Origin: Leptolyngbya sp.
Lineage (GTDB): Bacteria > Cyanobacteriota > Cyanobacteriia > Leptolyngbyales > Leptolyngbyaceae
Assembly (NCBI GenBank): GCA_003249025.1
Contig: QBMH01000012.1
Coordinates: 1 to 43,393 of the forward strand
Reading direction: 5' to 3'
Length of the DNA stretch: 43,393 nt
Positions 38,199 to 40,412 of the stretch are shown here, in pieces. A program made the position numbers and the translations under genes. Below the pieces are notes generated by a model. That model saw only the letters and a program-made list of their open reading frames with translations. It did not search any database and was not told where the DNA came from. How positions within the stretch are numbered: position 1 is the stretch's first letter; the number at the start of each line of letters is the position of its first letter.

Positions 38199-38241
38199 TA
38201 GCCCGCCAAATTTAGCGGGCTAGCAATCACTTTGTGGTGAT
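38199..38241. terminator. twin hairpins between convergent genes
   Basis: First stem TAGCCCGC / GCGGGCTA (38199-38222, eight perfect pairs, eight-base loop), then ATCAC / GTGAT (38226-38241). They separate the GT4 gene from the convergent PF10118-like gene. No long T run follows on either strand, so termination is probable but not certain. Confidence 0.5.
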
Positions 38242-39050
38242 CAATCATGTGCTGCCGGATGAAAATTGGGTTGCAAATACCAGAGACAATGGGGAACCGA
38301 TCGCAGCAGCATTTTCTCTTTCGTAAACCAAAACTGCTCCATCTCCCGCCAAACTGCCCACCGCCAGAGACATCGATCCTGATGCAGCAAGGTTAACGTA
38401 CATCTGTTTAACAAGCCCAAGACAAAGGCACAGCCGATCGCCAACCCCGCAACCCGGAGCAGATAATTCTGGCTCACGGTTTGTAACACCTCATAGGCAA
38501 CGGCTTTATGCTCAATTTCTTCCAGCGCGTACCATTCAAGCATTGCCTTGAGGGTGGGTTCTGCCGCTTCTAGCAAATCACTGGCGAGAACCACCTCAGA
38601 GAGTAAAACCGTTAGATGCTCCATGCCTGCGATCGCTGCCAAATTCAGCCGCCAATCCAGCCGTTGCAGACTCGCTAAAATCCAATCTTCCATCCGCAAA
38701 CACGCTTTTAGCTCATACCCTTGCTGCCGCAGAATTTCCCCAACTTGGGCATGTTGCTCTGCATGTTGGGCTTCTTGCAGAATAAACCCGCGCACATTTT
38801 GCCTGAGTGGGCTAGCTGTAATGTTCTTGAGGCTAGACTTAACGTGTCTAACCATCCAATATTCCACACTAGGCAAGGTTAAATGCAAGCTGTTAAACAA
38901 ATGAGTTTTAAACGGGCTGCCCCTCACCCAATGGCGGTCAACTGAGGCTGGCAGATTAAACTGGACGACGCGAACGGTACTCACTAGGTTTACCTGATGA
39001 CTAAAGGTTCGTTTCTTTTGAGATAACACGATCGCTCGAATAATTGCCAT
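38241..39050 (-). CDS. PF10118-like metal-dependent hydrolase
   Basis: Protein of 269 residues resembling the predicted metal-dependent hydrolase family (COG3687). Family features: FNSLHLTLPSVEYWMVRHVK, the first ligand block FILQEAQHAEQH and the second block WYALEEIEHKAVAYEV, giving a ferritin-like di-metal pattern of Glu and His residues. A hydrophobic segment at about 200-220 may touch the membrane. The substrate is not known. The ATG at 39050 is used; a GTG directly precedes it. Confidence 0.75.
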   Translation of the reverse strand: MAIIRAIVLSQKKRTFSHQVNLVSTVRVVQFNLPASVDRHWVRGSPFKTHLFNSLHLTLPSVEYWMVRHVKSSLKNITASPLRQNVRGFILQEAQHAEQHAQVGEILRQQGYELKACLRMEDWILASLQRLDWRLNLAAIAGMEHLTVLLSEVVLASDLLEAAEPTLKAMLEWYALEEIEHKAVAYEVLQTVSQNYLLRVAGLAIGCAFVLGLLNRCTLTLLHQDRCLWRWAVWREMEQFWFTKEKMLLRSVPHCLWYLQPNFHPAAHD

Positions 39051-39114
39051 CACTCGTTAGAGTCACTAACCGTATAGCATTGTTGGTTAAGGAGTTAATT
39101 TAAGCAACGGGAAA

Positions 39115-39834
39115 TCAGGGCAGCGATCGCATCTGTGACAGCAAAACATAGCCCGTTCCCACCATCATTAAACTGTCAAATCGATCCAACACTCCGCCAT
39201 GCCCTGGCAATAGGTTGCTGTAATCTTTGACCTGGCACAGCCGTTTTAGGTAGGAAGCCAGGACATCCCCTGTAAACGCAAACAAAGCGGTTGTCATGCC
39301 CATTACCAGAGCGATCGGCATCGAGAATCCCACCCAATCCCGCGCCAATATCGCTGCAATCAAGCAAAAGATAATCCCGCCGATCAGTCCTTCTAAGGTT
39401 TTGCTGGGGCTGATGTGAGGCAGTAGTTTTTGTTTGCCAAGCAGTTGTCCGGCAACCTGGCTAAATCCGTCGAAGGTGAAGACTTGAAAGTAGATAAACA
39501 GCAGAAAAAATCGCCCAAACACCATTGAAAAACAAATAAAGCTGGCAGCAATGGCAAGATAAATTCCCAGTACAGGGAGTTGAAACGATCGCCTGGGTGA
39601 CGCAGCTAAAACCCGGATAATTTCCCCCAGCCCGATCGCGGAAATTAAAATAGCGGTGAGATAAAAGTAATCCAACAAAATACTGGCGATCGCGCTGCTC
39701 ACAATGGCGATGTAGGTCAAAAACTTAAACCAGCGTTGCTGACTGGTTTTCGCGTCCACCTTACGGTTGGCAAAGTACATGCCAATTCCACCCAGAAGCA
39801 GAAAAACCGCAATATAAATAAAAATGGGATGCAT
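39115..39834 (-). CDS. CdsA-like phosphatidate cytidylyltransferase family protein
   Basis: Integral membrane protein of 239 residues. The C-terminal signature is that of CDP-diglyceride synthases: SPSKTLEGLIGG, then SYLKRLCQVKD and LLPGHGGVLDRFDS near 195-221. Such enzymes activate a lipid phosphate with CTP. It is shorter than a housekeeping CdsA, with fewer N-terminal segments. The ATG at 39834 overlaps the stop of the upstream CDP-alcohol transferase by one base (TAATG), while the longer frame to 40122 is antisense-like noise within that gene. The pair therefore probably makes and uses one CDP-activated lipid. Confidence 0.85.
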   Translation of the reverse strand: MHPIFIYIAVFLLLGGIGMYFANRKVDAKTSQQRWFKFLTYIAIVSSAIASILLDYFYLTAILISAIGLGEIIRVLAASPRRSFQLPVLGIYLAIAASFICFSMVFGRFFLLFIYFQVFTFDGFSQVAGQLLGKQKLLPHISPSKTLEGLIGGIIFCLIAAILARDWVGFSMPIALVMGMTTALFAFTGDVLASYLKRLCQVKDYSNLLPGHGGVLDRFDSLMMVGTGYVLLSQMRSLP

Positions 39835-40412
39835 TATTGATTCGCGTCGCGCAGTACCCAAAATAAGCCTTTCACATCCGTTTGGGGTTCGGATAACCAC
39901 AGCACAATCAGAATTTCTTCCAGGCAAGCTAAAATTCCCCACCCGATCGCCAAATAGTACAGCCAATCCCAAAAGCCAAACCAGAGCAACCCCATCATGC
40001 AGGCTCCTTGAAGGTAAGCGGTGATTTTGAAGCTGTAGGTATGTAGCCCAATAATGCTGCGAAACTTGATCAGCATGACTAGATATAACGTGAACCAGGC
40101 GATCGCAAAAGCAATGATCCAAAGAATATGGGGCGCAATTTCCTGTCCTTTAAAGCTAAAAACCGCCCAGAAACCAGCGATATAGGTTGCCGTATCTGCC
40201 CAAGAATCTAGTTTCGCCCCCAGTTCGCTTTCCATGCCAAACGTCCGAGCGATCCAGCCATCCAGAATATCGGTGATTAAGCTAATCAAGAAAAAAACCG
40301 AAAAGATTTTCTCTTGCTCTTCAAGAATCAAAAATATTAGTAATGGAAATACTGCCAACCGATAAAGCGAGAGGGTGTTTGGAATCGTCCAAATAGCTGT
40401 TTTTTCTGTCAT
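39834..40412 (-). CDS. CDP-alcohol phosphatidyltransferase family protein
   Basis: Integral membrane protein of 192 residues with about six hydrophobic segments. The complete family motif DGxxARx8GxxxDxxxD is present at Asp51 to Asp73 (DGWIART ... GAKLDSWAD). Enzymes of this family displace CMP from a CDP-activated lipid or alcohol and attach an alcohol. The acceptor cannot be told; phosphatidylglycerol-phosphate, phosphatidylinositol-phosphate and phosphatidylserine synthases share the motif. It is translationally coupled to the CdsA-like gene downstream. Confidence 0.87.
   Translation of the reverse strand: MTEKTAIWTIPNTLSLYRLAVFPLLIFLILEEQEKIFSVFFLISLITDILDGWIARTFGMESELGAKLDSWADTATYIAGFWAVFSFKGQEIAPHILWIIAFAIAWFTLYLVMLIKFRSIIGLHTYSFKITAYLQGACMMGLLWFGFWDWLYYLAIGWGILACLEEILIVLWLSEPQTDVKGLFWVLRDANQ

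Follow-up and report, generated by a model that had tools for sequence, protein, structure and literature searches.

A coupled CDP-alcohol phosphotransferase and CdsA-like gene pair in Leptolyngbya as a candidate module for an additional lipid

Only a few lipid classes are described from cyanobacterial membranes, and phosphatidylglycerol is the chief phospholipid. In Leptolyngbya sp., a CDP-alcohol phosphotransferase gene is coupled to a gene for a CdsA-like cytidylyltransferase, here called CdsL, and this arrangement raises the question of whether the organism has an extra CDP-lipid pathway, as an earlier note on this DNA proposed. The window, by which we mean the whole stretch of DNA analyzed, comprises 43,393 nucleotides (positions 1-43,393 of contig QBMH01000012.1, assembly GCA_003249025.1, Leptolyngbyaceae). 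Its genome, labeled G000, is 99.3% complete.

Layout and catalytic motifs of the pair

The features of the locus are as follows, with motif coordinates computed from the open reading frames (ORFs):

38241..39053, minus strand: Metal_hydrol (PF10118) gene, 61 bp downstream of the pair (E=9.4e-68)
39115..39834, minus strand: CdsL, CdsA-like membrane cytidylyltransferase, second gene of the pair, 239 aa (PF01148, E=1.7e-37)
39175..39228, minus strand: CDP-diglyceride synthase (CDS) signature KDYSNLLPGHGGVLDRFD in CdsL, fitting KDX5PGHGGX2DRXD
39832..39836, minus strand: TAATG junction of the pair, base 39834 being common to stop TAA and start ATG
39834..40412, minus strand: CDP-alcohol phosphotransferase, first gene of the pair, 192 aa (PF01066, E=5.4e-21; score 76 bits, cut-off 22)
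40194..40271, minus strand: complete CDP-alcohol phosphotransferase motif DILDGWIARTFGMESELGAKLDSWAD, fitting PS00379

The sequence bears out the coordinates, the minus strand and the overlap that had been reported: at the junction, CAATAATGCAT, the TAA of the transferase gene and the ATG of the CdsL gene overlap by one base. In the ORF listing the CdsL frame begins at a TTG farther upstream and has 335 aa; we took the 239-residue form. A divergent Uma2-family gene lies upstream of the pair in the window annotation, and promoter- and terminator-like sites around the pair are near chance level. The downstream PF10118 gene, whose product is annotated as a predicted metal-dependent hydrolase, is a possible third gene of the transcription unit. 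Its membership is doubtful because it was not seen beside the pair in relatives: tblastn did not find it in those of their loci that were examined.

The transferase contains the full motif claimed for it (PS00379, D-x2-D-G-x2-A-R-x7,8-G-x3-D-x3-D, as given in PMC9385802) and scores above its profile cut-off, which places it in the PF01066 superfamily. CdsL likewise combines the CDS signature, in the form quoted in PMC7018664, with a PF01148 score above cut-off. The catalytic motifs of both proteins are complete.

On sequence grounds, we favor the reading that the pair is a dedicated, non-housekeeping module supplying CDP-lipid and head group for an extra lipid, with a probability of roughly 0.6. 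CdsL would use CTP to make a membrane CDP-lipid from phosphatidic acid or one of its close analogues and hand it to the coupled transferase. The transferase would then replace CMP by an alcohol, yielding an additional phospholipid beside phosphatidylglycerol.

Housekeeping genes and the transferase

The earlier note had suggested looking for separate standard cdsA and pgsA genes, and had held that a genome with no others would make this the housekeeping pair. A genome profile search located both: pgsA at C131:15018-15500 (PF01066, 137 bits) and cdsA at C64:3414-4250 (PF01148, 222 bits). They are the one other PF01066 gene and the one other PF01148 gene of G000, and both outscore the pair members. 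These separate copies rule out a housekeeping identity, and the pair is therefore additional. The description of CdsL as short is also correct, since the genome's own CdsA ORF encodes 303 aa as against 239.

Neither pair protein reaches any NCBIfam equivalog cut-off (pgsA, ClsA, CdsA). The transferase scores best against ClsA (60.8 bits, cut-off 240), with pgsA at 44.1 bits (cut-off 109.1), and CdsL scores 89.5 bits against PRK11624, phosphatidate cytidylyltransferase, for which the cut-off is 385. PgsA and ClsA, the CDP-alcohol-type cardiolipin synthase, share PF01066, the PS00379 motif and lysine K129 with the transferase. However, its scores lie far below the cut-offs of both families, it is only 20% identical to the PgsA of G000 and to that of E. 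coli, and its conserved GLHxYSxK and VKGLxWV blocks are not seen in two aligned PgsA sequences. K129 is invariant in all ten aligned transferases, these two PgsA included, and we take it to be a lysine with a role at the acceptor site. The acceptor alcohol may itself bear a phosphate; the conservation of K129 fits this weakly.

These comparisons bear on a second reading, in which CdsL makes ordinary CDP-DAG and its partner makes PGP or cardiolipin, as a redundant or conditional pathway used, for example, under stress. The best-scoring profiles of the transferase (ClsA and PgsA), the K129 position common to PgsA and the whole CDS signature kept in CdsL are all in its favor. We nevertheless regard it as rather unlikely, given the distance of the scores from the family cut-offs, the low identity to both PgsA proteins and the rarity of the pair among cyanobacteria. 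In addition, phosphatidylglycerol synthesis has no need of the UbiA, DUF3419 and kinase-like genes present in the Bacteroidota gene cluster described below.

We placed the transferase in a 27-row tree, with 16 of the Bacteroidota solo transferases, all of which were retained, but without that of M33_DOE_097, which has lost its start to the end of a contig. Thirteen of 18 weak cyanobacterial matches were also tried; none of the 13 fitted the strict PS00379 pattern, and they were dropped. The window and MO_188 transferases join at 100/100, and YnbA-like proteins are separated from the transferase by a 100/100 branch, with long branches. The transferases of the pairs as a whole form no supported clade. 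Against solved structures, the transferase profile found nothing beyond short stretches of two PssA sequences (E 0.00055 and 0.002), and its AlphaFold model, with a pLDDT of 50, was set aside.

CdsL among CdsA-family proteins

In a 24-row CdsA tree, rooted at the midpoint and containing long branches, six CdsL rows (the window, two cyanobacterial metagenome-assembled genomes [MAGs] and three Bacteroidota) are united in one clade at 100/98; the CdsL of G858, cut by a contig end, was left out. Housekeeping CdsA and a YnbB-like group (100/99) both lie outside this clade, so that on this phylogeny CdsL appears as a third CdsA-family clade besides those two. The phylogeny that the earlier note had called for thus sets CdsL apart, but does not do the same for the paired transferases. 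Of the 24 rows, 21 carry the CDS signature unchanged; the G924 CdsL and two YnbB-like rows have an altered form. The YnbB-like group also takes in some second CdsA copies from genomes of the cyanobacterial phylum. In two genomes of the window's class (G237 and G193), a second CdsA-like gene (L007 and L029) groups with YnbB, not CdsA.

The closest known arrangement is E. coli ynbA-ynbB, in which a transferase gene likewise precedes a CdsA-like gene and the two are coupled at their ends; this too gives a CdsA paralogue beside a housekeeping cdsA. ynbA ends and ynbB starts at position 1478226, giving the same one-base overlap. The window pair could accordingly be a YnbA-YnbB homologue, joining a YnbB-type CdsA paralogue for the precursor of a glycolipid resembling MPIase to an uncharacterized CDP-alcohol transferase. 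Besides gene order and overlap, the resemblance extends to YnbB itself, of which only the C-terminal half is common with CdsA while the N-terminal half is different, according to the account in PMC7018664; the same account describes YnbB as supporting MPIase, not phospholipid synthesis, in vivo. However, CdsL falls outside the YnbB group and the transferase apart from YnbA-like proteins on long branches, YnbB has 298 aa compared with 239 in CdsL, and the neighbors differ, with no ynbC/ynbD-type genes beside the window pair. On the two trees we reject orthology with YnbAB, and we consider homology of this kind improbable. On a conjugative E. coli plasmid (L048, 4446-7761), a YnbB-like CdsA, a lysophospholipid acyltransferase and a YnbC-like hydrolase/methyltransferase lie in a row.

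A ynbAB-like pair on a Bacteroides finegoldii plasmid is coupled as well. Because these two pairs share the trait, the coupling, which the earlier note took as a sign of a dedicated pathway, is real in the window but less telling than assumed. Its broader claim of an extra CDP-lipid pathway is better served by the pair being additional, by the distinctness of CdsL and by a lipid-type gene cluster in Bacteroidota; the product may be a lipid with a new head group.

The best sequence and fold match of CdsL is T. maritima CdsA (TmCdsA), with which it shares the CDS signature and the C-terminal catalytic region. Its profile matches the solved structures 4q2g and 4q2e with E=3.7e-26 and 2.1e-25, in an alignment that begins at TmCdsA chain residue 39. 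The AF2 model of CdsL (pLDDT 81) has eight long helices, with a loop at 205-216, inside the signature, below 50. Foldseek returned four significant matches for this model, all TmCdsA. The likeness is limited, since CdsL is in its own clade, the TM-score is only ~0.5 and the N-terminal helix region of TmCdsA is not alignable in CdsL. As described in PMC7018664, the first of the nine TmCdsA helices makes up the N domain, and N-domain and C-domain residues together shape the cavity of the enzyme. Because this N-terminal helix region is absent from CdsL, we infer that its lipid pocket would be altered, and its lipid preference or rate may differ from those of CdsA.

Relatives, the Bacteroidota cluster and selection

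The pair is rare: the searches made found close relatives of it in two Leptolyngbyaceae MAGs and in four genomes of Bacteroidota, and nowhere else. In a sample of 292 genomes of the phylum, CdsL found its own gene and, among the matches listed, otherwise only distant ones, the best at 43-46% over roughly the final 115-120 residues of the match, in frames as long as a usual CdsA, with some nearly full-length alignments at 30-35%. As expected for a CdsA relative, 290 of the 292 genomes match it at E<=1e-10. At the same threshold the transferase has matches in 10 of 292, its own included, the best other being 35% identical. Within the order, 11 of 42 genomes match the transferase at E<=1e-6 and only G293 is close (79% identity); G293 has the frames seen in M33_DOE_097. 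One genus mate was searched (85% complete) and gave no transferase match.

Scanning the GTDB collection with CdsL yielded four loci, two of them from Leptolyngbyaceae MAGs (68 and 72% identity) and two from MAGs of Bacteroidota (35 and 39%), and the pairs of Bacteroidota genomes G858 and G924 were found among 87 genomes of one order. The one-base overlap recurs in M33_DOE_097 and in Chitinophagales ES-bin-175, with an 11-base overlap at L064. In MO_188.B28, the transferase gene (73% identity) is at the end of a separate contig from CdsL. Bacteroidota transferase matches L073-L107 have CdsL beside L100 and L101 only; L066 and L067, which also have it, are the loci of L065 and L064, respectively. 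Cyanobacterial transferase matches at ~30% (L036-L045, L054-L061) have no CdsA-like gene within ~1.5 kb and so are not pair members.

In Bacteroidota, the pair keeps company with genes for an HMG-CoA reductase (HMGR), UbiA (PF01040, E=9.4e-11), a PEP-synthase-like protein (PEPS; PPDK_N and PEP-utilizers), a BtaA-like DUF3419 protein (E=3.5e-64), a GNAT protein (E=3.5e-05) and an acyl-CoA ligase (ACS; AMP-binding, E=1.3e-52). A further member gives only a sub-threshold PF01148 match; we call it kinase-like, presuming its motifs to be those of phytol/dolichol kinases, and a profile comparison of its family with CdsL lent no support (probability 3%). G924 carries HMGR-UbiA-PEPS-CdsL-transferase-DUF3419-kinase-like-GNAT-ACS on a single contig. 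In G858, also on one contig, transferase and CdsL are divergent from HMGR-UbiA-PEPS-DUF3419-kinase-like-GNAT-ACS, and the contig end cuts CdsL. G331 has HMGR-transferase-CdsL and the start of UbiA on C344 and UbiA-PEPS-DUF3419-kinase-like-GNAT-SRPBCC-ACS on C294; the contigs are probably adjacent, because both end inside UbiA. Thus, the pair adjoins cluster genes in three of four Bacteroidota genomes, the fourth, G330, having the cluster on C459 and the pair on C515. Among the loci, the pair is beside HMGR in L064 and L109, and L108 contains PEPS-CdsL-transferase-DUF3419-kinase-like. In MO_188.B28, a kinase-like gene comes next after CdsL (its product matches the G330 protein at a pairwise E=5e-6), and a separate contig carries overlapping DUF3419 and GNAT genes.

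From its gene families, this looks like a lipid biosynthesis cluster. BtaA, a DUF3419 protein, functions in betaine-lipid synthesis. A DUF3419 gene is found in five of seven pair-bearing genomes searched, as against 46 of 395 sampled Bacteroidota. The likeness to BtaA holds for the Bacteroidota cluster but not for the window, as DUF3419 has no match in G000 and is also missing from G333. The single GNAT match in G000 is partial and weaker, and cyanobacteria commonly have GNAT proteins of its type; no full-length GNAT of the cluster type was found there. Because of these two gaps, the Bacteroidota pathway as a whole is absent from G000.

Conversely, the cluster occurs without the pair. Five loci from the cyanobacterial phylum but outside the window's class (L167-L170 and L174), in genomes we take as Gastranaerophilales, have UbiA-PEPS-DUF3419-kinase-like-GNAT-ACS and no pair. 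Of the best 30 of the 46 Bacteroidota DUF3419 loci, 29 have no cluster partner within ~1.5 kb; at that distance the pair is beside none and GNAT beside one. The pair is therefore an optional part of the cluster pathway, and in G000 it must work without DUF3419. The six genes are tightly packed in L167 (1415-9473), and likewise in L168, L169, L170 and L174. L171 (3994-8958), from a genome in the same class as the window, has a DUF3419-kinase-like-GNAT-ACS run.

We tentatively extend the favored reading of a dedicated module. The pair may be the CDP-lipid and head-group module of an undescribed lipid pathway formed by the cluster genes, with a product that is perhaps a prenylated or aminocarboxypropyl-bearing phospholipid; CdsL would then be a third CdsA lineage with a different lipid substrate, laterally transferred to a few cyanobacteria. 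This extension is possible, though well short of an even chance. Lateral transfer to the cyanobacterium is in itself probable, and its direction is an inference because the nesting of cyanobacterial CdsL inside Bacteroidota is supported only at 84/60 and 88/75. Among open-licence PMC papers, a scope that does not imply absence from print, no description of the pair or the cluster was found by title. The pair points to a conserved, uncharacterized lipid-type cluster in Bacteroidota and parts of the cyanobacterial phylum, which offers a ready gene list for finding the lipid product.

The pair could also be one piece of a larger pathway, gained by lateral transfer and now decaying or idle in G000. 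The gaps in DUF3419 and cluster-type GNAT and the genus mate's lack of a transferase match would agree with this, but the frames and motifs are intact and selection is evident. Nei-Gojobori dN/dS for CdsL is 0.093 (window-M33), 0.158 (window-MO_188) and 0.098 (M33-MO_188), and for the transferase 0.144 (window-MO_188). The ratios are rough, with dS (1.05-2.2) near or at saturation, but all four comparisons among the three cyanobacterial relatives are far below 1. Because dN/dS is 0.09-0.16, these appear to be working genes and not chance frames, both under purifying selection, and we consider decay very improbable. An intact, selected module of the kind we favor would add one more lipid class to cyanobacterial membranes.

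Two other gene arrangements were seen among the transferase matches. In Bacteroidota locus L079 (1486-2881), a full-length cdsA comes first and overlaps the gene of a solo CDP-alcohol transferase behind it. In cyanobacterial locus L042, a CDP-alcohol phosphotransferase gene (1486-2088) is flanked by a Proton_antipo_M (NDH-type) gene on one side and a ChpXY CO2-hydration gene on the other, and its product does not fit the strict PS00379 pattern; neighbor families were scanned for L042 and for the upstream gene of L037, and the gene layout of L043 and L044 is similar to that of L042.
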